A DNA stretch of 64,000 nt from Cellulomonas sp. JH27-2 (GTDB taxonomy: Bacteria > Actinomycetota > Actinomycetes > Actinomycetales > Cellulomonadaceae). Made by a program: the position numbers and the translations under genes. Positions 231-34,960 of the stretch are shown here, one piece after another. The stretch lies in the NCBI RefSeq assembly GCF_014837175.1, contig NZ_JACYFR010000004.1, positions 1 through 64,000 of the forward strand. Reading direction: 5' to 3'. Every line of letters starts with the position of its first letter. Position 1 is the stretch's first letter. The notes beneath the pieces are model-generated. The model saw only the letters and a program-made list of their open reading frames with translations, had not been told where the DNA came from and did not search any database.

Positions 231-2438
231 TCAGAACAGGTCGGGCTCCTGGCCGGCGGACGGAGCGACGAAGATCACGGCACCGAGCGGGGGGATGCGC
301 ACGAGAGCCGAGTAGGGGCGTCCGTAGTGGGGGTCGGGCATGGCGTCGACCGAGCCGAGGTTCCCCACGCCTGAGCCGCCGTAGAGCTCGGCGTCGGAGT
401 TGTACGCCTCCGTCCACCGGCCGCCGCTCGGCAGCGCCAGGCGGTAGCTCTCGTGGGGTGTGCCGGCGAAGTTCACGACCACGACCGCGTCAGGTACGTC
501 GTGGCCGTGGCGGATGTAGGCGAGCGTGTTGCGTCCGCTGTCGTCGGAGTCGATCCACTCGAACCCGTCGGGCGTGTGGTCGAGCTGCCACAGGGCCGGC
601 GTGGCCTTGTAGACGGCGTTGAGGTCGCGCAGTGCCCGTTGGACACCCTGGTGGCCGGGGTCGTCGAGTGCCCACCAGTCGAGGCCACGTGCCTCTGACC
701 ACTCGTGCTGCTGGGCGAACTCCTGTCCCATGAACAGCAGCTGCTTGCCGGGGTGGGTCCACTGGTAGGCGAGCAGCGCGCGGACGCCCGCCAGCTTCTG
801 CCAGTGGTCACCGGGCATGCGGCCATAGAGCGAGCCCTTGCCGTGCACCACCTCGTCGTGGCTGATGGGCAGGATGTACCGCTCGGAGTACGCGTACACC
901 ATGGAGAACGTGATCTCTCCGTGGTGGTAGCGGCGGTTGATCGGCTCCTCCTGCAGGTAGTGCAGGGTGTCGTTCATCCAGCCCATGTTCCACTTGAGCC
1001 CGAAGCCGAGTCCGTTGTAGTCCGTGGGAGCGGTGACGCCCGGCCACGCCGTGGACTCCTCGGCGATCATCATCGTGCCCGGGCTGCGGCGGTAGGAGGT
1101 CGCGTTTGCCTCCTGGAGGAACGAGATCGCCTCGAGGTTCTCGCGGCCGCCGTAGCGGTTGGGGCGCCACTGCCCCTCGTTGCGGGAGTAGTCGAGGTAG
1201 AGCATCGAGGCGACGGCGTCGACGCGCAGGGCGTCGACGTGGAACTCCTCGAGCCAGTACGTGGCGTTGGCGACCAGGAAGTTGCGCACCTCGGCGCGGC
1301 CGAAGTTGAAGATGTAGGTGCCCCAGTCGGGCTGCTCGCCGAGCAGCGGATCGGGGTGCTCGTACAGGGCCGTCCCGTCGAACTGGGCCAGGGCCCACTC
1401 GTCCTTCGGGAAGTGGCCGGGCACCCAGTCGACGATGACACCGATGCCGGCCCGGTGGAGGGTGTCGATGAGGTAGCGCAGGTCGTCGGGGTGCCCGAAC
1501 CGTGAGGTGGGGGCGAAGTAGGACGTCACCTGATAGCCCCAGGAGCCGCCGAAGGGGTGCTCGGCGACGGGCATGAGCTCGACGTGCGTGAACCCCAGGT
1601 CGAGGACGTACTCGGTGAGCTGGTGGGCGAGGTCGCGATAGGACAGACCCTCGCGCCACGAACCCAGGTGCACCTCGTAGACGCTGAGCGCCTGGGTGTG
1701 GGGGTCGTTCGTGCGTCGGGCCGTCATCCAGTCGTCGTCGGACCAGCGGTGCGCGGACTGGACGACGACGGACGCGGTGGCCGGCGGCACCTCGGTCCCG
1801 CGGGCCATCGGGTCGGCCTTCTGCCGCCACGAGCCGTCGTTCGCGAGGATCTCGAACTTGTAGCGGGTGCCGGCGACGACGCCGGGGATGAACAGCTCCC
1901 AGATGCCGCTCTCGCCCAGCGAGCGCATGGCGTGCGTGGCGCCCTGCCAGTAGTTGAAGTCGCCGATGACACGGACGGCGCGCGCGTTCGGCGCCCAGAC
2001 CGCGAACGAGGTGCCGTGCACCTGACCGAGCTCGCCGGGGTACTGCTGCACGTTGGCGCCGAGCACGGTCCAGAGCTGCTCGTGGCGACCCTCGCGGATC
2101 AGGTGGCGGTCGAGCTCCTGGACCGTCGGCAGGAACCGGTAGGGGTCGTCGATCTCGGTGGTCGTGTCGCCGTAGGTCGCCTCGACGCGGTAGTCGGGCA
2201 CCTGGGTACCCGGGAGGACCGCGACCCAGACGCCGTCCTGCTCGTGCTCGGCGTCGTGCCTGCCCGAGGCGGTGCGGATCGACACCCTGTCCGCCAGGGG
2301 TCGCAGGACCCGGACGGTGACCGAATCGGCGCCGACGTGCGGACCGAGGATGCCGTGCGGGTCGAACCATGCGCCGTGGGCGACGGCGCGCAGGTGATCG
2401 GAGTCGACGGGGACCGGGGAGTGGGCGACCGGGCTCAT
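231..2438 (-). CDS. glgB: 1,4-alpha-glucan branching enzyme GlgB (GH13)
   Basis: Transfers 1,4-glucan chains to 1,6 positions, making branched glycogen in the cytoplasm. The protein has about 735 residues, the usual length with the N-terminal N1 and N2 (CBM48) modules. The GH13 catalytic set is visible: Asp407 in LRVDAV, Glu460 in IAEES and Asp528 in ISHDEV, almost the same spacing as in the E. coli enzyme. ATG at 2438 is chosen; an in-frame TTG four codons upstream (2450) is possible, and neither has a strong ribosome binding site. Here glgB is 9 kb from glgE-treS-mak, whose linear product it would branch, and is divergent from a sugar importer. Confidence 0.96.
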
Positions 2439-2550
2439 GTCCCTACCCAACCACTGACCAGGTCACGGCGCAGGGAACACCGGTGTGGTCGCGCTCCCGC
2501 ACGGGCGTGGCGGTGATCGAATCGAGACCAAAACGACATCGTCGAGGCGC

Positions 2551-2580
2551 TTGCGAGAACTTTATTCGTCTGTCAAAGTT
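2551..2580 (+). promoter_or_regulatory. candidate promoter with overlapping operator for the 2665 importer operon
   Basis: A TTGCGA box (2551-2556) and a CAAAGT box (2574-2579) are 17 bp apart. The spacer and -10 are overlaid by an inverted repeat, AACTTT (2558-2563) and AAAGTT (2575-2580), with an 11-base centre. The position suits a repressor site. No regulator gene adjoins this operon, so the binding protein is unknown. Confidence 0.4.
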
Positions 2581-2664
2581 ACTCCATCGCGTCACCGACG
2601 ACGCGCCGGGCATCGAAGCCCGGACCGCTTCCCGCTCCCTGCGGGCACCCCGAGGAGACCTACG

Positions 2665-3999
2665 ATGCGCTCCATCCGACGACGCCGGGCCGTGCTCGGC
2701 ACCACTGCCCTCCTGTCCGTCACGGCGCTGCTGACCGCGTGCGGTGGCAGTGACGACGACGCCACGTCGCAGGACTCGGCCAGCGCCGGCACCCCCAGCG
2801 GCTCGATCACCGTGCTGACGTGGCGCACCGACCTGGTCAAGGACGGCACGTTCGACAAGTACGTGACCGCGTTCAAGGCGAAGTACCCCGACGTCAAGGA
2901 CGTCAAGGTCGAGGGCATCACCGACTACGAGGGTGAGGTCAAGACCCGGATGAGCACCGACGACTACGGCGACGTGCTCGCCATCGTCGGCTCGGTGAAG
3001 CCCCAGCAGTTCCAGCAGTTCTTCGAGCCGCTCGGGGACACCGCCGAGATGAGCAAGACCTACCGGTGGCTGAACGACAAGTCCTACGAGGGCAAGGCGT
3101 ACGGCATCCCCGTGGTCGGCAACGTCCAGGGCATCGTCTACAACAAGAAGGTCTTCGAGCAGGCCGGCATCACCGAGTTCCCGACGACGCCCGACGCGTT
3201 CATCGCCGACCTGCAGGCGATCAAGGACAAGGTCCCCGGAACCGACCCGCTGTACACGAACTACAAGGACTCGTGGCCGGTCAGCGCGTGGGAGTACTAC
3301 CGCGGCATCCCGTCCGCGGACCCCGACTACGTCAACGAGATGACGACGTGGGACGCGCCGTGGGCCGACGGCCACGACCACGAGGTCATCGACGGCCTGC
3401 TCTTCGACGTCGCGTCGAAGAAGCTCATCGAGGCCGACCCGACGACGACCAACTGGGAGCAGTCCAAGCAGCTGCTCGGCACCGGCAAGATCGGCACGAT
3501 GCTGCTGGGCTCGTGGGCCATCCCGCAGATGCAGGCGGCCGCGGTGGCAGCCGGCAACTCGGCGGACGACATCGGCTACATGCCCTTCCCGGCGCAGAAG
3601 GACGGCAAGTTCCACGCCACGGCCGGCGGTGACTACAACCTCGCCATCAACATCCACTCGGACAACAAGGTGACGGCCCGCGCCTGGATCGACTGGTTCA
3701 ACAACGACTCGGGCTACTCCGAGTCGCAGGTCGGCCTCTCGCCGCTCATCGACGGTGCGGTCCCGGCAGCGCTGAAGGACTTCACCGACCAGGCAGAGCT
3801 GATCACGCCGAACCCCGCGCCCGCGGGCAAGGAGTCCCTGTTCAGCGACATCGACACCGCGTCCGGCATCATCCTGACCGACGCCGGCTACCGCAAGAAG
3901 ATCATCGACGACGCACGCTCCGGCAAGCGCACCAAGCAGCAGGTCTTCGACGACCTGAACAAGGCCTGGGCGAAGGGGCGCGCCGAGGCGGGTAGCTGA
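2665..3999 (+). CDS. ABC sugar importer, substrate-binding lipoprotein
   Basis: Extracytoplasmic solute-binding protein of the family 1 (maltose/oligosaccharide) type, 444 residues. The start at 2665 follows a GAGGAG ribosome binding site by 7 bases and opens with an Arg-rich n-region, a hydrophobic core and a lipobox ending LLTAC, so Cys about residue 26 should be lipidated. An in-frame extension to 2485 lacks these features. Two membrane permease genes follow directly. The substrate cannot be read from sequence; the neighbouring glgB and alpha-galactosidase make an alpha-linked oligosaccharide a reasonable guess. Confidence 0.9.
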   Translation: MRSIRRRRAVLGTTALLSVTALLTACGGSDDDATSQDSASAGTPSGSITVLTWRTDLVKDGTFDKYVTAFKAKYPDVKDVKVEGITDYEGEVKTRMSTDDYGDVLAIVGSVKPQQFQQFFEPLGDTAEMSKTYRWLNDKSYEGKAYGIPVVGNVQGIVYNKKVFEQAGITEFPTTPDAFIADLQAIKDKVPGTDPLYTNYKDSWPVSAWEYYRGIPSADPDYVNEMTTWDAPWADGHDHEVIDGLLFDVASKKLIEADPTTTNWEQSKQLLGTGKIGTMLLGSWAIPQMQAAAVAAGNSADDIGYMPFPAQKDGKFHATAGGDYNLAINIHSDNKVTARAWIDWFNNDSGYSESQVGLSPLIDGAVPAALKDFTDQAELITPNPAPAGKESLFSDIDTASGIILTDAGYRKKIIDDARSGKRTKQQVFDDLNKAWAKGRAEAGS

Positions 4000-4007
4000 G
4001 TCGCTCC

Positions 4008-4973
4008 ATGGCCAACGTCACCGGGGTGGTCCCCACCCCTGCCAAGAATGCCGGTGACGTCCGCAGCCGTGCCGCCCGGCTCATCAAGCCGGGCGGCACG
4101 CGCGGTGGGCGCCGCCGATCGCTGACGCCGTACTTGTTCCTGGTGATCCCGGTCGGGCTGCTCGTGCTGCTGACCTACGTCCCCGTCGCGAACATGTTCT
4201 TCTACTCGATCACCGACTGGGACGGCTTGGACAAGACCAAGAACGTCATCGGGTTCGACAACTACGTCTCGGTCTTCACCGAGCCCGACAACCTGCGCGT
4301 CTTCGTCGTCTCGCTGTACTACTTCGCGGGATCCTTCGTGCAGATGGCGCTGGCGCTCTACTTCGCGACGCTGCTGAGCTTCAAGGTGCGTTTCAAGAAC
4401 CTCTGGAAGGGATTCCTGTTCTTCCCGTACCTGATCAACGGGGTCGCGATCGGGTTGATCTTCCTCAACTTCGTCAAGCCCGGCGGTGGGCTGGACTCGA
4501 CGCTCATGGCGCTCGGGCTCGACAGCCTCGTCAAGCAGTGGACGGGTGACCCGGACGTCATCAACTACACGCTCGCCGGCGTCTCCGTCTGGCGGTACAT
4601 GGGCCTGAACTTCGTGATGTTCCTGGGGGCGATCCAGTCGGTCCCGCGCGACATCTACGAGGCCGCCGACCTGGACGGTGCGACGCGATGGCACCAGTTC
4701 CGCCACATCATCCTGCCGTCGATCCGACCCATCGTCGGCCTCTCGTTCATCCTGGCGATCTCCGGTTCGCTGTCGGTGTTCGAGATCCCGTACATCATGA
4801 CGGGCGGCGCGAACGGGTCGGAGACGTTCGTGATCCGCACGGTGCGGATGGCGTTCGTCAACAACAAGGTCGGCCTCGCGTCGGCGATGGCTGTGGTGCT
4901 GCTGATCATCGTGCTGCTCGTCACCTGGCTGCAGCGCCGCCTGGTCCCCGACGAGGAGGTCGACATCGTATGA
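4008..4973 (+). CDS. ABC sugar importer permease, MalF type
   Basis: Inner-membrane permease subunit of 321 residues with six predicted membrane spans. The EAA loop that docks the ATPase is present (EAADLDGATRWHQF, about residues 221-234). It starts 8 bases after the binding-protein stop and its TGA overlaps the ATG of the next permease (ATGA), so the three genes form one operon. The N-terminal cytoplasmic tail of about 35 residues is basic. Confidence 0.93.
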   Translation: MANVTGVVPTPAKNAGDVRSRAARLIKPGGTRGGRRRSLTPYLFLVIPVGLLVLLTYVPVANMFFYSITDWDGLDKTKNVIGFDNYVSVFTEPDNLRVFVVSLYYFAGSFVQMALALYFATLLSFKVRFKNLWKGFLFFPYLINGVAIGLIFLNFVKPGGGLDSTLMALGLDSLVKQWTGDPDVINYTLAGVSVWRYMGLNFVMFLGAIQSVPRDIYEAADLDGATRWHQFRHIILPSIRPIVGLSFILAISGSLSVFEIPYIMTGGANGSETFVIRTVRMAFVNNKVGLASAMAVVLLIIVLLVTWLQRRLVPDEEVDIV

Positions 4974-5803
4974 ACGGCGTGAAGAAGGGCGTGGGCGGAA
5001 CCCTCAAGTACGCCTCGCTCGTGCTGGGCGCGGTGCTGGCGATGCTGCCCCTGGTCCTGATCATCACGGGCTCGTTCAAGACCGACCAGGAGTTCCTGTC
5101 GACCGGCCCGTTCAAGGCCCCGGCGAGCTGGACCAACTTCTCGAACTACGCCACCGCCTTCACCGAGGGCGGGATGCTGCGGGCGTTCGGCAACACGATC
5201 ATCATCTTCACGGTGGCGATCATCGGGACGATCTTCATCGGGGCGGCAGCGGCGTACGCGCTCGACCGGTTCACGTTCTTCGGTCGCAAGGCGGTGCTGG
5301 GCCTGTTCCTGCTCGCCACCCTCGTCCCGGCGGTCACCACGCAGGTGGCGACGTTCCAGATCATCAAGGCGCTCGGCCTGTACAACACGCAGGGCGCGCT
5401 GATCCTGCTGTTCACGGGGACGGACATCGTCTCGATCTACATCTTCGTGCAGTTCATGCGGTCCATCCCGCGCTCGCTCGACGAGGCCGCGAAGATGGAC
5501 GGAGCCGGCCACGTCCGGATCTTCCTGCGGATCATCGTGCCGAACCTCAAGCCCGCGATCGCCACCGTGGTGATCATCAAGGGCATCGCGATCTACAACG
5601 AGTTCTACATGCCGTTCCTCTACCTGACGGACCCGGAGAAGCGGCCGATCTCCACCACGTTGTTCGCGTTCAAGGGGCCGTACGGCTCGCAGTGGGAGGT
5701 GATCAGCGCGGGCATCGTGATCACGATCATCCCGATCCTGCTGCTGTTCCTGTTCCTGCAGAAGTACATCTACAACGGGTTCACGTCCGGCGCCACGAAG
5801 TGA
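4970..5803 (+). CDS. ABC sugar importer permease, MalG type
   Basis: Second permease of the importer, 277 residues, starting at the ATG that overlaps the preceding stop. It has the MalG fold pattern of six membrane spans and the EAA loop (EAAKMDGAGHVRIF). No ATPase gene follows: a strong terminator lies 4 bases behind the stop. Actinobacteria often power several such importers with one shared MsiK/UgpC-type ATPase encoded elsewhere, which is the likely arrangement here. Confidence 0.93.
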   Translation: MNGVKKGVGGTLKYASLVLGAVLAMLPLVLIITGSFKTDQEFLSTGPFKAPASWTNFSNYATAFTEGGMLRAFGNTIIIFTVAIIGTIFIGAAAAYALDRFTFFGRKAVLGLFLLATLVPAVTTQVATFQIIKALGLYNTQGALILLFTGTDIVSIYIFVQFMRSIPRSLDEAAKMDGAGHVRIFLRIIVPNLKPAIATVVIIKGIAIYNEFYMPFLYLTDPEKRPISTTLFAFKGPYGSQWEVISAGIVITIIPILLLFLFLQKYIYNGFTSGATK

Positions 5804-5849: not shown

Positions 5850-7985
5850 TCAGGCGGTCGTCAGGTGCACGACGATCGCCTGAGCCGGCCACAGGGCCGG
5901 GATCTGCAGCCCCACCTCGGCCAGCACCCGTCCCGGCAGGACGACCTCCCGCGTCATCCAGCCGGGCGTGATCCAGCCGTGCCGAGCAGGTCCCACCTCG
6001 CCGCGCACCGCGACGCGGTAGCGCACGTCGGGCGCGAGGCCCGGCAGGACGACGCACTCGGGGCGGGCCTCTTCCACGGTGGCGACCGTCGCGATCGTGA
6101 AGACGGCCTCGTCCTGGTTGGCGCTGACGGCGCCGACGACGCGCAGCGCCGGGTCGGTCGTGTCGGGGTGGACCGCCGTCCCACCGTGCAGGACCGGTCG
6201 GAGCTCGCGGTACAGCGCGGCGAATGCCTGCAGCGTGGCGAGCTCGTCGTCGTCGCACTCGAGCACGTCCCACTCGAAGCCGGCCGAGCCCATGAGGCTC
6301 GTCGCCAGGCGGAACGCCAGGTCCGTGGTGCGCCCGGAGCTGTGCGCGGTGGGCGGTCCGACGTGGCCGCCGACGAGCTCGGGCGGCAGCAGGAGCTGCG
6401 TCCACCGCTGGATGTCCTGGCGTTCGACGGGGTCGTTCGAGTCGGACGCCCACACACAGTCCGTGACGGCGAGGATGCCGAGGTCGGTGCGCGCACCGCC
6501 GCTCGAGCACGACTCGATCTCGAGGCCGGGGTGGTCGGCCTTGAGGCGGGCGATCAACCGGTATGCCGCCAGCGTCTGGGCGTGCGTGCCGGGGCGGCCG
6601 TCGTGCAACGACTCGACGAGGTCGCGGTTGTGGTCCCACTTGATGAAGTCGATGCCGAGCCGGCCCACCAGCGCATCGATCTGGCCGTGCACGTGGTCCC
6701 AGGCCGCCGGGTTCGCGAGGTCCAGGACGTGCTGCGTGCGCCAGGAGACGCCCGGGGTGCCGGCCGCGTGCTCCGGACCGTGCAGCAGCCAGTCGGGGTG
6801 CGCGCGGGCGGCGTCCGAGTCCAGGTTGACCATCTCGGGCTCGAACCAGAGGCCGAACTGCATGCCCAGGCCGTGCACGCGCTCCGCGAGCGGCTCCAGC
6901 CCGTCGGGCCACACCGCCGGGTCCACCCACCAGTCGCCCAGGCCGCGCGTGTCGTCGCGCCGGTCGTGGAACCAGCCGTCGTCCAGCACGAACCGCTCGA
7001 CGCCGATCGCGGCCGCGCGCTCGGCGAGCCGAAGCAGCGTGGCGGGGTCGTGGTCGAAGTAGACCGCCTCCCACGTGTTGAGCACCAGCGGGCGAGGGGT
7101 CCGCGGATGCTGCGGGCGGGCGCGCAGCCAGGTGTGGAAGCGCGCGCTGATCCCGTCGAGGCCCTCGTCGGACCAGGCGAAGTACGCCGGCGGCGTCGTG
7201 TACGACTCACCTGCGGCGAGCACGACCTCGCCGGGACGCAGCAGCTCGCCGGCGCCGGCGAGCGTCGTGTGCTCGGTCAGCCGGTCCGTACGGTACGTGG
7301 TGTCGGCGCTCCAGCCCAGGTGCACCGCCCAGAGGTGGCCGTCGCGGTTGCGGGGCGCGCCGTCCGAGGCGATCAGCAGGTGCGGGTTGTCGTGACCGGG
7401 GCGCCCGCGACGCGACTCGCGGGCGATCGAGCCGCGCGGGAACGCGATGGTCTGCGGCGCCTTCTCGCGCGTCCAGCGACCGGTGAAGGTCGTCAGGTGC
7501 GAGGCCGTCCGGTGCACGGGCATCGTCGCCTCGAGCCACCCGACCTCGAGCGGGGAGTCGGCGCGGTTGTCGAGGCGGTGCGTCACGGTCACGAGCCCGC
7601 CGACCTCCACGGCGACCCGCGTCGTCACGGCCAGCCCGGTGGCCTCGTCGTACGCGACGGCCTCGACGGACGTCGACGTCGTCGTGACCGCGCCGCGCTG
7701 CCAGCGGGGGAACACGGGCCGGCCCGCGCGCGTCACCTGGATGCCGGGCCGTCCGGCCCAGCCGTCGCCCTCGGTCGGCAGGACGGACAGCGACCATGCG
7801 GCGTCGAGGGTGCCGGGCGGCGTCTGGCGGTCCGTCGCGAGGACCAGGTTCGTCAGCTCGTCGGGCGTGAGGTCGCCCAGGTCGGCGCCCCACGTCACGA
7901 CGCGTGCCATCGGGCCGCGCAGGTCCACGACCACCGCCGCTCCGTCGCGGCGCAAGTGGGCCCAGTCGGTGGTCTCGTGCGTCAT
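5850..7985 (-). CDS. alpha-galactosidase, GH36
   Basis: Hydrolyses terminal alpha-1,6-galactose from raffinose-type sugars or galactomannan. The 711-residue length fits GH36, with an N-terminal beta-supersandwich followed by a TIM barrel. The nucleophile Asp451 is in DFIKWDHNRD, the substrate-binding CSSGG motif is near 493-497, and the acid/base is Asp515 in WASDSND. No signal peptide is seen, so it acts in the cytoplasm on imported oligosaccharides. It is divergent from an esterase/isomerase/kinase operon and convergent with a sugar importer, so it probably processes what that importer brings in. Confidence 0.95.
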   Translation of the reverse strand: MTHETTDWAHLRRDGAAVVVDLRGPMARVVTWGADLGDLTPDELTNLVLATDRQTPPGTLDAAWSLSVLPTEGDGWAGRPGIQVTRAGRPVFPRWQRGAVTTTSTSVEAVAYDEATGLAVTTRVAVEVGGLVTVTHRLDNRADSPLEVGWLEATMPVHRTASHLTTFTGRWTREKAPQTIAFPRGSIARESRRGRPGHDNPHLLIASDGAPRNRDGHLWAVHLGWSADTTYRTDRLTEHTTLAGAGELLRPGEVVLAAGESYTTPPAYFAWSDEGLDGISARFHTWLRARPQHPRTPRPLVLNTWEAVYFDHDPATLLRLAERAAAIGVERFVLDDGWFHDRRDDTRGLGDWWVDPAVWPDGLEPLAERVHGLGMQFGLWFEPEMVNLDSDAARAHPDWLLHGPEHAAGTPGVSWRTQHVLDLANPAAWDHVHGQIDALVGRLGIDFIKWDHNRDLVESLHDGRPGTHAQTLAAYRLIARLKADHPGLEIESCSSGGARTDLGILAVTDCVWASDSNDPVERQDIQRWTQLLLPPELVGGHVGPPTAHSSGRTTDLAFRLATSLMGSAGFEWDVLECDDDELATLQAFAALYRELRPVLHGGTAVHPDTTDPALRVVGAVSANQDEAVFTIATVATVEEARPECVVLPGLAPDVRYRVAVRGEVGPARHGWITPGWMTREVVLPGRVLAEVGLQIPALWPAQAIVVHLTTA

Positions 7986-8012
7986 CGCATGCAGTCCGTT
8001 CGTGCGTCCGGT

Positions 8013-8044
8013 TTGGTCTCACATTGTTCGGTCGCTAAATTTAG
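8013..8044 (+). promoter_or_regulatory. candidate promoter with palindromic -10 / operator in divergent region
   Basis: TTGGTC (8013-8018), a 17-bp spacer and TAAATT (8036-8041) form a plausible plus-strand promoter. The -10 sits inside a perfect 10-bp palindrome, CTAAATTTAG (8035-8044), in a very AT-poor background. The palindrome also gives a TAAATT box on the minus strand, towards the alpha-galactosidase gene. It could be a shared operator, a bidirectional -10, or both. The rest of 7986-8193 shows no other clear signal. Confidence 0.4.
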
Positions 8045-8125
8045 TCCATGTCAGGCCTCGGACGACGAGGCCCGACCGATCCCGCTCACGGGGCCGGTCG
8101 TACGGTCGACCACACGCTGGAGTGC

Positions 8126-8197
8126 ATGGTGACGAACGAGGATCTTGCGAACCGCCGGGCTGTGCCCACGACGTACCGGGACGGGGCGGCGGCATGA
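8126..8197 (+). CDS. possible 23-codon upstream ORF coupled to the esterase gene
   Basis: ATG at 8126 opens 23 codons ending in a TGA that overlaps the ATG of the esterase gene (ATGA), the same coupling seen between the real genes of this operon. The predicted peptide starts MVTNEDLANRR and resembles nothing I recognise. No good ribosome binding site is evident. It could be a coupling uORF or chance. Confidence 0.2.
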   Translation: MVTNEDLANRRAVPTTYRDGAAA

Positions 8198-9180
8198 CCG
8201 CGATCGAGCTCGACGAGGCCTCGCTCGAGACCTACCGACCTACGCAGCACGCTCCCGCCGACTTCGACGACCTGTGGGCGCGGACCCTGCAGGAGGCGCG
8301 CACGTACCCGGTCGCGGTGGAGACGCGGCGCGTGGACGCCGGGCTGAGGCTCGTCGACGTGGACGACCTCACCTTCGCCGGGTTCGGCGGCGAGCGCGTC
8401 TCGGCGTGGCTCGTCCGTCCCGCGAACGCGACGGGGCCGCTGCCCGTCGTCGTCGAGTACAACGGCTACGGCGGGGGCCGCGGGGTCGCGCACCAGCACC
8501 TGCTGTGGGCGGCGGCCGGGTTCGCGCACCTGTTCATGGACACCCGGGGCCAGGGTTCCGCGTGGGGCAACGGCGGCGACACGCCGGACCCGCACGGCTC
8601 GGGCCCCGCGCTCCCGGGTTTCATGACGCGGGGGATCGAGAGCTTCGAGACGTACTACTACCGGCGCCTCATCACCGACGCCGTCCGGGCGGTCGACGCG
8701 GTGCGCGACCTGCCGGGCATCGACACCGACCGGATCGTCGTCAAGGGTGCGAGCCAGGGCGGCGGGCTCGCGCTCGCGACCGCCGGCCTCGTCGACGGTC
8801 TGGCCGGTGCACTCATCGACGTGCCGTTCCTGTGCCACATCCGCCGGGGCATCGAGGTGAGCGACACCGACCCGTACGGTGAGATCGTGCGCTACCTGGC
8901 CGTGCACCGAGGTGCGATCGAGCAGACCCTGGCCACGCTCGACTACGTCGACGGGATGCATCACGCCGCGCGGGCGAGTGCCCCGGCGCTGTTCTCCGTC
9001 GCGCTGCGCGACAACGTGTGCCCGCCGTCGACCGTCTTCGCGGCCCAGCACGCCTACGCCGGGCCGAGCGAGATCACCCGTTACGCGTTCAACAACCACG
9101 AGGGCGGGCAGGGGCACCAGGAGCGCGTCCAGCTCGACTGGCTCCGCGCGCGTGGCCTCACCCCTGCGGAGGCATCGTGA
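8194..9180 (+). CDS. acetyl esterase, AXE1 / cephalosporin-C deacetylase family
   Basis: Alpha/beta-hydrolase of 328 residues that removes acetyl groups from acetylated xylo- or manno-oligosaccharides. The family's catalytic residues are visible: Ser187 in KGASQGGG, Asp273 in RDNVCPP and His302 in NNHEGG. There is no signal peptide, so it should deacetylate imported oligosaccharides in the cytoplasm. The start at 8194 matches the conserved N-terminus; longer in-frame extensions are shadow sequence. Its stop overlaps the GTG of the next gene (GTGA). Confidence 0.9.
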   Translation: MTAIELDEASLETYRPTQHAPADFDDLWARTLQEARTYPVAVETRRVDAGLRLVDVDDLTFAGFGGERVSAWLVRPANATGPLPVVVEYNGYGGGRGVAHQHLLWAAAGFAHLFMDTRGQGSAWGNGGDTPDPHGSGPALPGFMTRGIESFETYYYRRLITDAVRAVDAVRDLPGIDTDRIVVKGASQGGGLALATAGLVDGLAGALIDVPFLCHIRRGIEVSDTDPYGEIVRYLAVHRGAIEQTLATLDYVDGMHHAARASAPALFSVALRDNVCPPSTVFAAQHAYAGPSEITRYAFNNHEGGQGHQERVQLDWLRARGLTPAEAS

Positions 9181-10394
9181 TCGCGTGGCCCGATCTGCCC
9201 ACCCACCACGACTGGCTGCAGCGCGAGCTGGTCCGCCTGCTCGGCTTCGGGCGCGAGCTGCCAGCGGCCGGTGGCGGCGCGGCGTGGCTGGACGACGACG
9301 GGCACCCCGACGCCTCCCAGCCCGTGCAGACCTGGATCACGGCGCGCACGGTCCACGTGTACTCGCTCGCGACGATGCTCGGCGAGCCCGGTGCGTCGGC
9401 GATCGCCGACGCCGCGCTGGCCGGCCTGACGGGTCCGCTGCACGACGACGAGCACGGCGGCTGGTTCGCCGACGCGGGGCCCGGCCGCGACGAGGGCACG
9501 AAGGCCTGCTACGACCACGCGTTCGTCGTCCTGGCGGCGTCGACCGCGACCCTGGCCGAACGTCCCGGTGCCCGTGCGCTGCTCGACGAGGCGCTCGAGA
9601 CGTGGCTCACCCGCTTCTGGGACGACGAGGCGGGCATGTGCGTCGACACCTGGGACCGCACGTTCACCACGCTCGACGCGTACCGCGGGGTCAACGGCAA
9701 CATGCACAGCGTCGAGGCGATGCTCGCGGCCTACGACGTGACGGAGGACCGGGCGTGGCTGGAGCGTGCCGCGCGCATCTGCACGAACGTCGTCGCGCAC
9801 GCGAGCGCGGGCGACTGGCGCATCCCCGAGCACTACGACGCCGACTGGACGCCGCAGCCCGAGCTCAACGCCGACAAGCCGGGGGACAAGTTCAAACCCT
9901 ACGGCGCCACGATCGGGCACGGCCTGGAGTGGGCGCGGCTGCTGCTGCACGTCGAGGCCGCGGGCGGCGAGGTGCCGGGCGGCGGGTTGGAGGCGGCGGC
10001 CGCGTTGTTCGAGCGGGCGGTCGCGGACGGCTGGGCCGCCGACGGCGCACCCGGCTTCGTCTACACGACCGACTGGTCGGGACAGCCCGTCGTGCACGAC
10101 CGCATGCACTGGGTGATCGCCGAGGCGACTGCCGCGGCCGCCGCGCTGTACCGCCGCACGGGCGACGAGCAGTACGGCGCGGCCTATGCGCGGTGGTGGG
10201 ACTACGCCGAGCAGCACGTGCTCGATCGTGAGCGCGGGTCATGGCACCACCAGCTCGACCGCGACAACCAGCCCGCTGCGACGGTCTGGCCCGGCAAGGC
10301 CGACCTGTACCACGCCGTGCAGTCGGTGCTCATCCCGCGGCTTCCGCTCACCCCGGCCATCGGCCTCGCCGTCGCACGGGGGCTGGTCGCATGA
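9177..10394 (+). CDS. AGE-family sugar isomerase/epimerase (mannose isomerase-like)
   Basis: An (alpha/alpha)6-barrel protein of 405 residues of the N-acylglucosamine 2-epimerase superfamily. GTG at 9177 is preceded by GGAGG at 9168-9172 and overlaps the esterase stop. Conserved barrel motifs are visible: VNGNMHSVEAM, GHGLEWARLL and RMHWVIAEA, with the histidines typical of the D-mannose isomerase / YihS branch. With a PfkB kinase directly behind it, conversion of mannose to fructose followed by phosphorylation is the simplest role. Cellobiose 2-epimerase or N-acetylglucosamine 2-epimerase activity cannot be ruled out. Confidence 0.85.
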   Translation: MIAWPDLPTHHDWLQRELVRLLGFGRELPAAGGGAAWLDDDGHPDASQPVQTWITARTVHVYSLATMLGEPGASAIADAALAGLTGPLHDDEHGGWFADAGPGRDEGTKACYDHAFVVLAASTATLAERPGARALLDEALETWLTRFWDDEAGMCVDTWDRTFTTLDAYRGVNGNMHSVEAMLAAYDVTEDRAWLERAARICTNVVAHASAGDWRIPEHYDADWTPQPELNADKPGDKFKPYGATIGHGLEWARLLLHVEAAGGEVPGGGLEAAAALFERAVADGWAADGAPGFVYTTDWSGQPVVHDRMHWVIAEATAAAAALYRRTGDEQYGAAYARWWDYAEQHVLDRERGSWHHQLDRDNQPAATVWPGKADLYHAVQSVLIPRLPLTPAIGLAVARGLVA

Positions 10395-11281
10395 GCGTCC
10401 TGGTGGTGGGGGAGGCGCTCGTCGACATCGTGCGGCGGGCGGACGGCAGCATCGTCGAGCACCCCGGCGGGAGCCCGGCCAACGTCGCGCTCACGCTCGG
10501 GCGGCTCGGGCGCTCGCCCCGGCTGCTGACGTCCTTCGGCGACGACGAGCGCGGCGCCGAGCTCCGCGCCTGGCTGCAGGAGTCGCACGTCGACGTCGTC
10601 GTCGCGCCCTCCCCGCGGACGTCGACGGCGGTGGCGACACTGGATGCGGCGGGTGCCGCGACGTACGAGTTCGACCTCACCTGGGACCTGGGCGACGTCG
10701 ACGTCGAGCCCGCCGACGTGCTGCACATCGGCTCAATCTCGGCGATCCTCGACCCGGGTGGGCGGCAGGTCGCCGAGCTCGTCGAGCGGGCGCGCCCCAC
10801 GACGACGATCACGTACGACCCGAACGCGCGACCGGCCCTCATGGGCGACCCGGCCGTGGCGGCGGAGCGCGTCGCGCGGCTCGTCGCGCTCGCGGACGTC
10901 GTGAAGGTCAGCGACGAGGACCTCGCCTGGTTCCACCCCGACCGCGAGCCGCTGCAGGCGGCGCAGGACTGGTTGGCGCTGGGTCCGGCGATCGTCGTCG
11001 TGACGACCGGCGGGAGCGGCGCGCACTACCTCACCGCGGCCGGCGCCGGGCACGTCACGGCCCCGAAGGTCGCGGTGGTCGACACCGTGGGTGCGGGGGA
11101 CACGTTCATGGGGACGCTCGTCGACGGGCTCGTGGGGGCGGGCGTCGCCGGGGACCGTGCCGCGCTGGGCGCGCTGGGCCACGACGCGTGGGACGCGATC
11201 CTGTCCCGCGCGGCGCGGGCCGCGGCCGTGACGGTGTCGCGGTCCGGGGCCAACCCGCCGCGGTCTAACGAGCTGGACTGA
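10391..11281 (+). CDS. PfkB-family sugar kinase, probable fructokinase
   Basis: ATP-dependent ribokinase-fold kinase of 296 residues. The N-terminal PfkB signature is seen in GGSPANVALTLGRLG (residues 26-40) and the second signature in DTVGAGDTF, with catalytic-base Asp237. It begins in the stop codon of the AGE-family gene (ATGA). In this context it most likely makes fructose 6-phosphate from the isomerase product, feeding glycolysis. Specificity within PfkB kinases is hard to predict from sequence alone. Confidence 0.88.
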   Translation: MSVLVVGEALVDIVRRADGSIVEHPGGSPANVALTLGRLGRSPRLLTSFGDDERGAELRAWLQESHVDVVVAPSPRTSTAVATLDAAGAATYEFDLTWDLGDVDVEPADVLHIGSISAILDPGGRQVAELVERARPTTTITYDPNARPALMGDPAVAAERVARLVALADVVKVSDEDLAWFHPDREPLQAAQDWLALGPAIVVVTTGGSGAHYLTAAGAGHVTAPKVAVVDTVGAGDTFMGTLVDGLVGAGVAGDRAALGALGHDAWDAILSRAARAAAVTVSRSGANPPRSNELD

Positions 11282-11286
11282 AGGCC

Positions 11287-12530
11287 TCAGCCGAGCAGAC
11301 GCTCCAGCCCGGCCAGCGGGATCGGCAGCCAGGTCGGGCGGTTGCGGGACTCGTAGACGGCCTCGTACAGCGTCTTGTCGAGCTCGAGCACGGTGGTGAG
11401 CAGCGGGTCGCCCGCCTCGCCGTACCCGGTGGTCAGAGCGGCGCGGGCGTCCGCGGTCCAGGCTGCTGCCGCGTCGCCGGTGAGCCCGCCGACGGCCGCC
11501 GCGTAGTCCATCGAGCGCAGCATGCCTGCCAGGTCGCGGACGGCCAGGTCGGGGCGGGTGCGCTGCTCGAGCGGGGCCAGCGGCTCGCCCTCGAAGTCGG
11601 TGATGAACCACTCGTCCTGGGCGCGCAGGACCTGGCCCAGGTGCAGGTCGCCGTGGACCCGCTGGCGCGGCGGGGCCGCGGCGAGGTCCCGGACGCGCGC
11701 CAGCAGGTCCGCGATCGCGTCCGCGTGGCCCGCGAGCTGGGGGACGGCCGACGTCGCCCACGCGAACCGCTGCGCGACGGCGTCGGCCAGGACGGTGGGG
11801 CCGTCGGGCGCGTCGACGAGCGGGAAGACGCGTGCCAGCGAGGCGTGCATCGTGGCCATGGCCTCGCCCAGGTCGCGGGCGAGGTCGGCGAACGACTCTC
11901 CGCGCCCGGCGTACGCGCACGCGAGCTCGAAACCGTCCTGCGCGCCCGCGACGAACGTGCTCATCGCACCCAGGTAGCCGCGGCGCGGGGCGCCGTCCGG
12001 CCCGGTCCACTCGCCCTCGAGCCACGCCAGCGGTGCGGGGACGTGGCGCCAGCCGTCCTCGACGAGGCGGCGCGGGACGTCGACGTCAGGGTTCTCGCCG
12101 GGCTGCAGGGCGCGCAGCACCTTGAGGATCGCGGTGTCGCCCAGGATGACGGACGTGTTGGACTGCTCACCGGTGATCATCCGCGCCTGCGCGGGGTCGG
12201 CGTCCGTGCCGGGGCCGTCGGCCGCCGCGAGCCAGGCCCGCAGGAACGCGGGGTCGGCGGTGCCGTCGTGCACCTCACGCCCGTCGACGTGCCCGACGAG
12301 CTCCCCGACACCCGGTCCCAGGACGAGCGGGACCTGCAGGAGTGCGTCGATCGAGCCGGCGCGCGCGGCGACCAGCAGGACCCGGACGTCGTCGGCCAGC
12401 GGGACCACCCCCACGATGGTCAGCTCGGCCTGCGCCCCCTTGGCGGGGAACCAGCGGCGGCCGGGCAGCCACGGGGCGAGGACCGCGAGCAGCTGCTCGT
12501 CGAGCGGGGTGGGGGACTGGGCGACGAGCG

Positions 12531-31009: not shown

Positions 31010-32191
31010 TCAGGCGATGCGGGCGTCGATCGCGGCGGCTGACAGCACGTGGTCGGCGGCCATCGCACTCGCCCCGAGGACGCCCGCGCGTCCCTTGGTC
31101 CGGGAGGCGACGATCCGCAGGTGCTGCGTGGCCAGCGGCAGCGAGCGTCGGTAGACGACCTCGCGGATCCCGGCGATGAGGTGCTCGCCGGCCTCAGCGA
31201 CCTGGCCGCCGACGACGATCACCGACGGGTTGAGCATGCTGACGCAGGCGGCGAGCACGCCACCGATGTGCCGGCCGGCCTCGCGGATCTCCCGGCTCGC
31301 GTCGAGGTCGCCCGCGCGCACCAGCGCCACGACGTCCGCGCTCGTGGTGGCCGGCGTCCCCTGGGCCGTCAGGGCCGTGGCGATGGCGGGGCCGCTCGCG
31401 ACCGCCTCGAGGCACCCGGTGTTGCCGCAGCGGCACGGCAGGTCGAGTCCGCCGGGCACGGCGATGTGACCGAGGTCGCCGGCGGAGCCCTGCGCCCCCC
31501 GACGGATGGCACCGTCCGAGATGATGCCCGCGCCGATGCCGGTGGCGACCTTGACGAACAGCAGGTGGTCGACCGCAGGCCACTGCGAGGTGTGCTCGCC
31601 GAGCGCCATGATGTTCACGTCGTTGTCCACGAGCACCGGGACGTGGAGACGACGGCCCAGCAGGCCCGGGACGTCGGCGTCGTCCCAGCCGGGCATGATC
31701 GGCGGGTTGATCGGGCGTCCGGTGGAGTGCTCGACGGGGCCGGGCAGCCCGACGCCGACGCTGACCAGGTCCGACGACGGCCGGCCCGCGGCCGTCAGCA
31801 GCTCGGCTGCGACGGCGGCCACGCGGTCGAGGACGGGCCCGGGCCCCTCGGCGATGGCGATCTGCTCGGCGTGCTCGGCGAGCACCTGGCCGGCGAGGTC
31901 CGTGAGTGCCAGCCGGGAGTGCGTCGCGCCGAGGTCAACGGCGAGCACGACCCGCGCGGCCGGGTTGAACCGGAACGTGGCGGGAGGCCGGCCACCGGTG
32001 GAGCTGGCCTCGCCGGCGGGGGAGACGAGGCCGGAGGCGAGCAGGGTGTCGACCCGCGCGGCGATCGTCGACCGTGCCTGGCCGGTGAGGGTGGCCAGGT
32101 CGGCGCGCGTGCGCGGCTGGCCGTCGCGCAGGAGCTGGAACATGTCCCCAGCGCCGGTCGGCTTGGGGGTGATCGTCGTCAGCTCCTCCAT
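31010..32191 (-). CDS. ROK-family transcriptional repressor
   Basis: 393 residues: an N-terminal winged helix-turn-helix (about 18-70, RADLATLTGQARSTIAARV) and a ROK sugar-sensing domain with DLGATHSRLAL and the zinc motif PCRCGNTGCLEA. It should repress in the absence of an inducer sugar. The gene is divergent from the ribose-type ABC operon at 32331, its probable target. ATG at 32191 and an in-frame GTG at 32197 are both possible; GGGGA lies upstream of the GTG at good distance. Confidence 0.92.
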   Translation of the reverse strand: MEELTTITPKPTGAGDMFQLLRDGQPRTRADLATLTGQARSTIAARVDTLLASGLVSPAGEASSTGGRPPATFRFNPAARVVLAVDLGATHSRLALTDLAGQVLAEHAEQIAIAEGPGPVLDRVAAVAAELLTAAGRPSSDLVSVGVGLPGPVEHSTGRPINPPIMPGWDDADVPGLLGRRLHVPVLVDNDVNIMALGEHTSQWPAVDHLLFVKVATGIGAGIISDGAIRRGAQGSAGDLGHIAVPGGLDLPCRCGNTGCLEAVASGPAIATALTAQGTPATTSADVVALVRAGDLDASREIREAGRHIGGVLAACVSMLNPSVIVVGGQVAEAGEHLIAGIREVVYRRSLPLATQHLRIVASRTKGRAGVLGASAMAADHVLSAAAIDARIA

Positions 32192-32295
32192 CCGCACAGT
32201 GAACCATCCCCGTCCTGTCGCTCGTCGCACCGCGTCGCCGGTGGCTTGTGCGGGTCACATTCGCATAACTCTGTCATCAATCTAGCAACTTTTGC

Positions 32296-32324
32296 TTGAC
32301 GTCCGTCATAAGTATCCCTAGTTT
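32296..32324 (+). promoter_or_regulatory. promoter of the ROK-linked sugar operon with overlapping dyad
   Basis: TTGACG (32296-32301), a 17-bp spacer and TAGTTT (32319-32324) form a near-consensus promoter, and the ATG follows 6 bases later, so the first gene should be leaderless. A perfect dyad, TGACG-TC-CGTCA (32297-32308), lies on the -35 box and is a good candidate for the ROK repressor site. The rest of the 139-bp divergent region is AT-richer than its surroundings. Confidence 0.65.
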
Positions 32325-32330
32325 CGTCGC

Positions 32331-33857
32331 ATGGTCACCGACGACCCCCAGGGCACCGCCGCTCTGCTCGAGATGCGCGGCATCGTCAAGCAGTTCCCCG
32401 GCGCACGCGCCCTCGACGGCGTGGAGCTCGACGTGCGGGCCGGGGAGGTCCACTGCCTGCTCGGCCAGAACGGTGCCGGGAAGTCCACCCTGATCAAGGT
32501 GCTCGCCGGTGCTCACCAGCCCGACGAGGGGCAGATCCTCCTCGACGGCGAGCCCGTCACGATCCCGCACCCGGTGGCAGGGCTCCGGCTCGGCATCGCG
32601 ACGATGTACCAGGAGCTCGACGTCGTCGACGGCCTGTCGGTGACCGAGAACGTCTTCCTGGGCCACGAGCTCGCCACGGGCGGGTTCTCGCAACGCCGTG
32701 CCGCCACGCGCCGCACGCGCACGCTGCTCGCACGGCTCGGGCACTCCGGGATCTCGCCGCACCGCGAGGTCGGGACGCTGTCCGCCGCCGGCAAGCAGAT
32801 CGTGTCGATGGCCCGCGCGCTGTCTCACGACGCACGTGTCATCGTGATGGACGAGCCGTCGGCCGTGCTCGACTCGGAAGAGGTGGCGAACCTCTTCCGG
32901 GTGGTGCGCGACCTGACGTCGCAGGGCGTCGCCGTGGTCTACATCTCGCACCGCCTCGAGGAGATCCGCCAGATCGGCGACCGGATCACCGTCCTCAAGG
33001 ACGGACGGACCGTCGCCTCCGGTCTCGCGGTCGCGAGCACAACGACCGCCGAGCTCATCCGCCTGATGACGGGCCGCAACGTGGAGTACGCGATCCCGCG
33101 CCGACCGCCCGTCCGGGAGGACGCCGCGACGGTCGTACGCGTGCAGGGGCTCGAGCTGCGCGGTGTGTTCCAGGACGTCTCGTTCGACGTGCGCGCCGGC
33201 GAGGTCGTCGGGCTGGCGGGCCTGGTCGGGTCGGGGCGCTCGGAGATCCTCGAGACCGTGTTCGGCGCCCGCCGGGCGACAGGCGGCTCGGTGCAGGTGG
33301 GCGACCGGACGCTGCGGCCGGGGTCGGTGTCCGACGCGGTGCGTGCGGGCGTCGGCCTGTGCCCCGAGGAGCGTAAGAGCCAGGGGCTGATCCTCGACGA
33401 GCCCGTCTACAGGAACATCACGCTGTCGACCTTCGCCCGCACCGCACGGGGAGGCTTCCTCGACGAGGCCGCGGAGCGTCGCGCCGCCGGCGAGCAGATC
33501 GAGGCCCTCGACGTGCGGCCCGGCGACCCCGAGCGGGCGGCGCGCACGCTCTCGGGCGGCAACCAGCAAAAGGTGCTGCTCGCCCGGTGGCTCGTGCACG
33601 GGTGCCGGGTGCTGCTCCTCGACGAACCGACCCGCGGCGTCGACGTCGGTGCTCGGGCCGAGATCTACGCCCTGGTCGCGGCGCTGGCGGCGCAGGGGGC
33701 CGCCGTCGTCGTTGTCTCGAGCGAGATCGAGGAGGTCCTCGGCCTGGCCGACCGCGTGCTGGTGGTCTCCGAGGGGCGCGTGGTGCACGAAGGTCCGACG
33801 TCCGCGATCGACGAGCACCGCGTGCTCGACCTGGTGATGGAAGGAAGTGCCGCGTGA
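32331..33857 (+). CDS. sugar ABC importer ATPase (RbsA/XylG/MglA type)
   Basis: 508 residues with two fused ATPase domains. The first has an intact Walker A (GQNGAGKST) but a non-canonical signature (LSAAGKQ). The second has a degenerate Walker A (GLVGSGRSE) with a canonical signature (LSGGNQQK). This asymmetry is normal for the CUT2 monosaccharide family. ATG 32331 follows the -10 box by 6 bases. Its stop overlaps the permease GTG (GTGA). Confidence 0.95.
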   Translation: MVTDDPQGTAALLEMRGIVKQFPGARALDGVELDVRAGEVHCLLGQNGAGKSTLIKVLAGAHQPDEGQILLDGEPVTIPHPVAGLRLGIATMYQELDVVDGLSVTENVFLGHELATGGFSQRRAATRRTRTLLARLGHSGISPHREVGTLSAAGKQIVSMARALSHDARVIVMDEPSAVLDSEEVANLFRVVRDLTSQGVAVVYISHRLEEIRQIGDRITVLKDGRTVASGLAVASTTTAELIRLMTGRNVEYAIPRRPPVREDAATVVRVQGLELRGVFQDVSFDVRAGEVVGLAGLVGSGRSEILETVFGARRATGGSVQVGDRTLRPGSVSDAVRAGVGLCPEERKSQGLILDEPVYRNITLSTFARTARGGFLDEAAERRAAGEQIEALDVRPGDPERAARTLSGGNQQKVLLARWLVHGCRVLLLDEPTRGVDVGARAEIYALVAALAAQGAAVVVVSSEIEEVLGLADRVLVVSEGRVVHEGPTSAIDEHRVLDLVMEGSAA

Positions 33858-34903
33858 GCGAGCAGGACGTCACGATCCCGGCGGCGGACGAGTCCGCCCG
33901 GGTGGAGAAGGAGGCGCCGGCGGCGCGGGAGCGGCGGTCCGGGCTGCTGCACGGGGCCGCCGGACGCAACCTGGGCCTGGTGATCGCGCTCGCGGTCCTG
34001 TGCCTGGTCGGCGTGATCACTGCCGGCGACCGGTTCGTCGGGACCGCCAACATCCTGACCATCCTGCGGCTCGCTGCGGTGACCGGGGTCCTGAGCATCG
34101 GGATGACGTTCGTCATCACGGGCGCCGGGATCGACTTGTCGGTCGGCTCGGTCCTGGGCCTGTCCTCGGTGTGGGCCAGCACCGTCGCGACCCAGACGAT
34201 GGCGCAGGACACGCACTGGATCGTCATGGTGGGTTGCGCCCTGCTCGTCGGCCTCGGCGCGGGCATCGTCAACGGCGTCCTCATCGCCTACGGCAAGGTG
34301 GTCGCGTTCATCGCGACGCTGGCCATGATGGTCTCCGCCCGAGGGCTGGCCGAGATCATCGCGAACCGGCAGACCCAGGTGGTCGAGGTCCAGGGTTTCC
34401 TGGACTTCTTCAGCGGATCCTTCCTCGGCGTCCCGGCGCTCGTCTGGATCTTCGCGGTCGTGTCCGTGATCGGTTGGGTGCTGCTCAACCGCACCACCTT
34501 CGGTCGCCGCACGGTCGCCGTCGGCGGCAACCCCGAGGCCGCGCGGCTCGCGGGGATCAACGTCAAGCGGCACACCATGTACCTGTACGCCCTCGCCGGC
34601 CTCGCCGCCGGGATCGGCGGCGTCATGATGCTCGGCCGCACCACGGCAGGGAGCTCGACGAACGGTCAGTTCTACGAGCTCGACGCCATCGCGGCCGTGG
34701 TCGTCGGCGGGACGCTCCTGGCGGGCGGCCGCGGCACCATCGTCGGCACCGTCCTGGGCGTGCTCATCTTCTCGACGCTGACCAACGTCTTCACGCAGAA
34801 CAACCTGTCGATCTCGGCGCAGGCGGTGGCGAAGGGCGTGATCATCGTCGTCGCCGTGCTGCTCCAGCAGCGCATCGCCGAGCGCTCCCGCGCGGGCACC
34901 TGA
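33854..34903 (+). CDS. sugar ABC importer permease (RbsC/XylH type)
   Basis: 349-residue permease of the CUT2 family with 8-10 hydrophobic spans and the family segments TFVITGAGIDLSVGSV and YELDAIAAVVVGGT. It starts at a GTG in the stop codon of the ATPase gene. The first 40 residues are charged and cytoplasmic. Confidence 0.95.
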   Translation: MSEQDVTIPAADESARVEKEAPAARERRSGLLHGAAGRNLGLVIALAVLCLVGVITAGDRFVGTANILTILRLAAVTGVLSIGMTFVITGAGIDLSVGSVLGLSSVWASTVATQTMAQDTHWIVMVGCALLVGLGAGIVNGVLIAYGKVVAFIATLAMMVSARGLAEIIANRQTQVVEVQGFLDFFSGSFLGVPALVWIFAVVSVIGWVLLNRTTFGRRTVAVGGNPEAARLAGINVKRHTMYLYALAGLAAGIGGVMMLGRTTAGSSTNGQFYELDAIAAVVVGGTLLAGGRGTIVGTVLGVLIFSTLTNVFTQNNLSISAQAVAKGVIIVVAVLLQQRIAERSRAGT

Positions 34904-34960
34904 CCCCGCGACCCACAGCACACCCACCACCCCAGCAGCACCCGATCAAGGAGGATCGTC

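Follow-up and report, generated by a model that had tools for sequence, protein, structure and literature searches.

Four enzyme genes of Cellulomonas sp. JH27-2 raise the question of which substrate they serve together. They encode a GH36 alpha-galactosidase, a CE7 acetyl esterase, a protein of the AGE superfamily and a PfkB-family kinase, flank one divergent control region, and stand next to the genes of an importer. The window, that is, the whole stretch of DNA analysed, is 64 kb of contig C4 in a genome of 3.73 Mb and 8 contigs (L, G and C numbers are our handles for loci, genomes and contigs). The original prediction took the four enzymes as a set for decorated mannan that the importer could supply. 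This reading is backed by a binding protein of the manno-oligosaccharide type, by linkage of the importer to GH2, GH36 and ROK genes elsewhere in the genus, and by an operator-like site common to four promoters. We regard it as very probable that the four enzymes and the importer belong together as the intracellular part of a beta-mannan regulon that is ROK-regulated and dispersed over a Cellulomonas genome. The basis of this reading, namely gene identities, the site common to the promoters, co-occurrence and linkage, is seen in the sequences.

The importer and its neighbourhoods in the genus

The importer is real as predicted, comprising an SBP_bac_1 binding protein and two BPD_transp_1 permeases. 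The best solved relative of the binding protein is BlMnBP1 (252 bits), and the next other protein reaches 68 bits. The N-N of 'MNNRTD' is T-W in the window protein; the alignment spans the protein, and its numbering is not tied to the published contacts. BlMnBP1 comes from Bifidobacterium animalis subsp. lactis and binds manno-oligosaccharides; both it and its twin prefer mannotriose and also bind galactomanno-oligosaccharides, according to the available part of PMC8106489.

At E <= 1e-30, 36 of the 81 genomes in the genus have the binding protein, the window genome counted. The 35 neighbourhoods from the other 35 genomes (L116-L150), several of which end at contig ends, hold a ROK regulator in 33 cases, a GH2 beta-mannosidase-like gene in 32, a LacI-like gene in 32, a GH36 gene in 19 and an AGE gene in 5. 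Two of the three stretches without GH2, L125 (9,988 bp) and L147 (3,915 bp), are truncated. In 19 other genomes, GH36 is divergent from the GH2 beta-mannosidase gene. Whenever a stretch holds both mak and glgB (22 cases), the importer is found between the two, and so its chromosomal place is the same as in the window. The beta-mannosidase and ROK genes accompany the importer in other genomes but not in the window cluster.

These neighbourhoods bear on an alternative in which the importer and GH36 form a raffinose/melibiose (alpha-galactoside) set, with the fructokinase acting on the fructose of sucrose and the AGE protein and the esterase as bystanders. The presence of GH36 together with a fructokinase-like protein fits raffinose. 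However, the binding protein is nearest to a manno-oligosaccharide binder, GH36 is paired with beta-mannosidase as described above, and the operator-like site described below is common to the GH26 mannanase and the GH2 beta-mannosidase. We consider the raffinose set highly improbable.

Two further observations on the importer should be noted. In L150 (G040:C4:90748-93281), two equal-scoring binding-protein genes face each other with their 3' ends overlapping, and each has a ROK match and a site at its flank; this is either an inverted duplication or an assembly artefact. The putative mannan importer is also kept inside a glycogen/maltose 1-phosphate gene group.

An operator-like site common to four promoters

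A conserved 33-base element lies at the ROK/importer promoters; 34 of the 35 agree with the seed in at least 23 positions, and L149 agrees in 16. The divergent GH36/GH2 regions match it likewise at 23 or more positions (19/19), and GH2 genes without GH36 ahead match at no more than 17 positions (13/13). A matrix was built from 53 sites (31 distinct) of other species only, with none from the window genome. Its best and second-best matches in the window lie in the GH36/esterase divergent region and at the importer promoter (Table 1), and its top four (12.7, 12.1, 5.9 and 4.0 bits, partly overlapping) are all in these two promoter regions; the next-best match, elsewhere in the window, scores 2.7 bits. 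The site in the divergent region contains the palindrome CTAAATTTAG, and the same core occurs in the ROK-side promoters of L220-L222. The importer-promoter site has a 23-base core at 2560-2582 on the minus strand. Outside the window, the GH2/ROK promoter scores 45.4 bits with the matrix and the GH26 promoter 18.7 bits. Four promoters of this genome therefore have a matrix match: those of the importer, of GH36 and the esterase-AGE-PfkB genes, of the GH2 beta-mannosidase and of the GH26 mannanase. The ROK protein is the probable factor binding the site.

The background was taken from the best 80 of the 140 AGE loci found, several of which are short stretches. In a first scan of these 80 loci, all 21 matches of at least 14 bits fell in Pseudobutyrivibrio and Bifidobacteriaceae loci. 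A GC filter of 0.68 dropped 25 of the 80, those of Pseudobutyrivibrio and Bifidobacteriaceae included, and the remaining 55 high-GC loci (1,022,131 bp) gave no match of 9 bits or more. Another 28 esterase loci (L191-L218, each 2.6-4 kb) reach at most 0.9 bits. A 23-mer pattern was also drawn from the GH2, importer and GH36/esterase sites of this genome, which match it with zero mismatches by construction. Searched over the 3.73 Mb with up to 3 mismatches, it found those three source sites only, and the reversed control found 0. The 23-base pattern is thus specific in the genome.

The GH26 promoters provide an independent test of the site. GH26 is found in 27 of the 81 genomes, and in every one the highest-scoring site of the 3.8-kb locus stands 186-308 bp ahead of the GH26 domain, with at least 9 bits in 23 of the 27 copies. 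The weakest (-0.6 bits) belongs to G068, which is without an importer match; G070 (78% complete) likewise lacks one, yet its GH26 site scores 13.5 bits. The binding protein and GH26 occur together in 25 genomes (Fisher p = 2.6e-10, kinship not corrected).

Mannan genes elsewhere in the genome

No mannosidase or mannan phosphorylase had been seen locally. This holds for the cluster but not for the genome, which has a GH2 beta-mannosidase and one GH130 elsewhere. With the GH2 and ROK proteins of the importer loci in other genomes as queries, the single GH2 match was at C1:581620-584064, with 64% identity to the query and a beta-mannosidase as its best solved relative (456 bits). The mannosidase gap is therefore filled from contig C1. 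Directly divergent from GH2 lies the ROK orthologue (C1:584406-585587, 66% identity, Pfam ROK 152 bits); eight further ROK matches in the genome are weaker, with 28-36% identity. The one GH26 (C3:265029-265862) sits within a protein of 1326 residues that has a leader (judged by eye), a CBM11 and immunoglobulin-like domains. Its best solved relatives are 2bvt (409 bits) and then 2x2y (MAN26A, 403 bits), both of which we take to be the Cellulomonas fimi enzyme.

The one GH130 was considered as the missing step and rejected, since it has no operator-like site nearby (best -3.7 bits in L004) and its neighbours appear by eye to be glycosyltransferase-like (L004:6055-10931). In NCBIfam it comes closest to models for mannobiose phosphorylase, including a beta-1,2 model, with 132 and 129 bits, below the cut-offs of 550 and 450. 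The GH130 locus may belong to a separate mannan or storage-glycan system.

At 31010-36019 in the window, another ROK gene, whose product is 30-31% identical to the ROK protein of the mannan locus, adjoins importer-like genes (ATPase, permease and lipoprotein, by eye). This is apparently a separate system.

Layout of the cluster and the GH36 protein

The open reading frames (ORFs), families, coordinates and divergent arrangement of the four enzymes are as originally described, as judged from the ORF list and Pfam (Table 1). The N-termini of all four lack a leader, judged by eye, in agreement with the absence of signal peptides claimed before. The importer binding protein starts with a lipoprotein-type leader. 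The divergent GH36 and esterase genes are separated by 208 bp (7986-8193). Because the esterase/AGE (GTGA) and AGE/PfkB (ATGA) joints both overlap by 4 bases, these three genes form an apparent single transcription unit. No ATPase gene was found in the importer cluster among the ORFs and Pfam matches. The AGE, esterase and GH36 proteins each have one match in the whole genome at the thresholds used. GH36 carries KWDHNRD (449) and WASDSND (512), which we take to be the motifs of the catalytic Asp residues in this family.

Table 1. Features of the window, by position in the 64 kb
Feature	Position	Strand	Evidence or remark
glgB	231-2450	-	Upstream neighbour of the importer genes
Operator-like site (ROK box), importer promoter	2552-2582	+	Second-best matrix match in the window, 12.1 bits
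Substrate-binding lipoprotein of ABC importer, manno-oligosaccharide type	2665-3999	+	SBP_bac_1; BlMnBP1 is best solved relative
Importer permease 1	4008-4973	+	BPD_transp_1
Importer permease 2	4970-5803	+	BPD_transp_1
GH36 alpha-galactosidase	5850-7985	-	Melibiase 377 bits (Pfam), plus GH36 N and C domains
Operator-like site (ROK box), GH36/AXE divergent region	8022-8052	-	Best matrix match in the window, 12.7 bits
CE7 acetyl esterase (AXE1)	8194-9180	+	Pfam AXE1/CE7 322 bits
AGE superfamily protein, YihS/mannose-isomerase subfamily	9177-10394	+	Pfam GlcNAc_2-epim/AGE 378 bits
PfkB-family kinase	10391-11281	+	Pfam PfkB 141 bits
Maltokinase (mak)	11287-12489	-	Downstream neighbour of the PfkB gene

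The isomerase and the kinase

Of the three NCBIfam models that match the AGE protein, D-mannose isomerase is the best (457.5 bits), followed by cellobiose epimerase (EpiA, 41 bits) and N-acyl-glucosamine epimerase (36 bits). His177, His248 and His379 align with the three histidines of the YihS subfamily. The protein is likely a D-mannose/D-fructose isomerase, and its action on mannose in vivo would follow from its subfamily. The PfkB protein has a DTVGAGD motif. It scores 132 bits against the NCBIfam fructokinase model, which is still the best model although the cut-off of 450 is not reached, and it is likely a fructokinase.

Among solved structures, those closest to the AGE protein are of the YihS type and include the sulfoquinovose isomerase 7ag4 (367-372 bits). 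They would fit a sulfoquinovose (sulfo-EMP) set with AGE as sulfoquinovose isomerase (YihS) and PfkB as sulfofructose kinase (YihV). The kinase points elsewhere: its best solved relative is a PfkB fructokinase at 215 bits, and sulfofructose kinase reaches just 43 bits. Moreover, neither an aldolase nor a sulfoquinovosidase is found in the set by ORFs or Pfam. At the positions of YihS Gln362 and Gln379, which we take to be the sulfonate contacts, the window protein has His and Ala. A sulfoquinovose set is extremely improbable.

Another possibility is that the AGE protein acts as a 2-epimerase on mannobiose or cellobiose and supplies a GH130 mannosylglucose phosphorylase, an arrangement seen in the mannan loci of gut Firmicutes. 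Such routes of epimerase and GH130 are known (PMC8262883, as far as its available part goes), and the genome does have one GH130. The model scores of the AGE protein (mannose isomerase 457 bits, EpiA 41 bits) oppose this assignment. So does the GH130 itself, which stands among glycosyltransferase-like genes with no site and is closest to mannobiose phosphorylase models, below cut-off. We consider this epimerase route very unlikely and retain mannose isomerase as the likely assignment.

The closest pairs of AGE and PfkB genes elsewhere (L006-L008, 85-87% identity) also lie between glgB and mak. A LacI-type gene is beside the pair in L006 (by Pfam) and L007 (by ORF), and none was called in L008. 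Plausibly, such a pair first served mannose on its own and was drawn into the mannan regulon in some species.

The esterase and its relatives

The esterase has GASQG, a GxSxG serine motif, at 185 and scores 335 bits to the solved esterase 1vlq. Judged from its family, it would act on acetylated manno-oligosaccharides. Among its seven nearest relatives in the genus, three stand beside a GH2 beta-mannosidase gene and three beside an AGE gene. In L220-L222, the esterase directly follows GH2, downstream of another importer type and of a ROK gene that has a 32-bit site. L224 shows the order GH2, AGE, esterase. A GH1 gene separates GH2 from the esterase in L223, and in L195 the esterase adjoins an AGE gene.

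The importer in L220-L222 should be noted. It has SBP_bac_5 and other oligopeptide-type parts (Pfam on L220 only) and lies between the ROK gene and the GH2 beta-mannosidase plus CE7; the site palindrome there is ACTAAATTTAGT. It may perhaps stand in for the usual importer and carry the same substrate.

The seventh of these relatives is in L219, a second genome with the three genes together: a GH28-like gene and counterparts of the esterase (69%), isomerase (80%) and kinase (76%) form a row between glgB and mak, preceded by a 29.0-bit site that is also ahead of the divergent glgB. The GH28-like protein that heads the row (L219:8203-9627, minus strand) has no obvious leader, and a cytoplasmic enzyme of a pectin family behind a site of the mannan type is odd.

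The L219 row raises the possibility that the esterase, isomerase and kinase serve another acetylated polymer, xylan or pectin, and share a promoter region with GH36 by chance insertion. The pectin-type family at the head of this row is consistent with it, as are the occurrence of CE7 in 74 of the 81 genomes and the differing cargo held between glgB and mak in different genomes. Against it, the window operon and L219 have the same class of site, and of the seven nearest esterase relatives three are beside GH2 beta-mannosidase and three beside AGE, as given above. Service to another polymer is unlikely, and we retain decorated mannan as the probable substrate.

Observations against the mannan reading

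Several observations weigh against assigning the set to a mannan regulon. Both window sites score only about 12 bits, and among 40 simulated windows (first-order Markov) the maximum exceeds 11 bits in 4 and 12.7 bits in 2. The score alone is therefore modest, and position is what counts. In the whole-genome search that allowed up to 3 mismatches, the 23-mer missed the GH26 site, so the genome's four sites do not make up a single tight motif. In the stretches of L223 and L224, where the esterase is close to GH2, no site exceeds 8 bits.

The enzymes themselves also leave room for doubt. The isomerase score of 457.5 bits is below the D-mannose isomerase cut-off of 600. The window GH36 is just 47-50% identical to the GH36 proteins of the 19 other mannan loci. 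The CE7 family is not specific to mannan, because it is present in 74 of the 81 genomes. The genome also has a class I manA, and a kinase plus mannose-6-phosphate isomerase could carry mannose instead.

Finally, most relatives of the AGE protein are outside a mannan setting. Seventy-nine of the 80 AGE loci, which come from named genomes, give no match to the GH2, GH36, GH26 or AXE queries (GH2 matches none of the 80 and AXE one), and L009, L021, L038 and L082 show no mannan genes by eye. The closest pairs, in L006-L008, have no importer, GH36 or esterase gene adjoining and no site of 9 bits or more.

Proposed pathway

In the proposed pathway, the secreted GH26 endo-mannanase (C3) would cut mannan into galactosylated and acetylated manno-oligosaccharides, and the binding protein-permease importer would take them up. 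The importer lacks an ATPase gene of its own and would be served by a shared ATPase. Inside the cell, the CE7 esterase and GH36 would strip acetyl and galactosyl groups, yielding acetate and galactose, and the GH2 exo-beta-mannosidase (C1) would free mannose. The YihS-type isomerase would then convert mannose to fructose, and the PfkB kinase fructose to fructose 6-phosphate; by these two steps mannose would reach glycolysis without mannose 6-phosphate. The enzyme activities, above all the substrates of the CE7, AGE and PfkB proteins, and the ROK protein as site-binding factor are inferred here after their families. The ROK repressor encoded beside GH2 would control the promoters via one operator and would probably be released by mannose, after Thermotoga ManR, for which mannose is reported as the releasing effector in the available part of PMC3750489.

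A narrower claim, which we favour with moderate confidence, is that the ROK mannan operator came to govern a captured esterase-isomerase-kinase operon, so that decorated mannan can be turned into fructose 6-phosphate by a route free of mannose 6-phosphate. Since the isomerase-kinase pair stands without an operator in L006-L008, gain or loss of one operator would add or remove this branch.

Relation to known systems

The GH26 of the window genome is nearest to 2bvt and 2x2y, presumably the Cellulomonas fimi Man26A, which connects it to the Man26A/Man2A pair of that species. For this pair, the accessible part of PMC5892457 does not mention an importer, a ROK site or an isomerase branch. As in the ManR regulon of Thermotoga maritima, which is also of the ROK type, a ROK gene is linked to mannan enzymes here, and a common operator-like site appears to join them. 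The present system differs in belonging to an actinobacterium, in being spread over at least three unlinked loci, and in its extra CE7 esterase and isomerase-kinase branch. It has a binding protein with two permeases, whereas the part of the Thermotoga literature available gives MtpEFGKL.

The binding protein is homologous to those of the BlMnBP1/2 importer of B. animalis subsp. lactis ATCC 27673, in which, according to the portion of PMC8106489 at hand, a mannanase and a putative beta-mannosidase are upregulated on mannan together with the BlMnBP importer. The mannanase is GH5 there and GH26 here, and an isomerase-kinase branch is not mentioned in that portion. The mannan loci (MULL) of Faecalibacterium and Roseburia likewise hold an importer, GH36, acetyl esterases and an epimerase together. 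They are described, in the available part of PMC8262883, with CE2/CE17 esterases, GH113, and GH130 phosphorolysis to mannose 1-phosphate, in contrast to CE7, GH2 hydrolysis and probable isomerisation of free mannose here. The three-histidine active site is shared with YihS-type D-mannose isomerases such as Pseudomonas geniculata AGEase, which has its lowest Km for mannose (available part of PMC7762179). That enzyme is studied there for mannose production, whereas the gene here is in a putative mannan operon.

Mannan regulons under ROK control, importers of manno-oligosaccharides, and GH26 and GH2 enzymes are already known. The present case differs in their combination and dispersal in one actinobacterial genome, with CE7 in place of CE2/CE17, hydrolysis in place of phosphorolysis, and the isomerase-kinase branch. 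Among the open-access matches listed, no title or abstract opening describes such a regulon; the subscription literature lies outside that search.

Significance

The finding would turn a loose list of enzymes into a testable genome-wide pathway. It proposes a function for an importer present in 36 of the 81 genomes of the genus, and a regulator with its operator for mannan use in Cellulomonas. If it is true, a route for mannose that by-passes mannose 6-phosphate is predicted.

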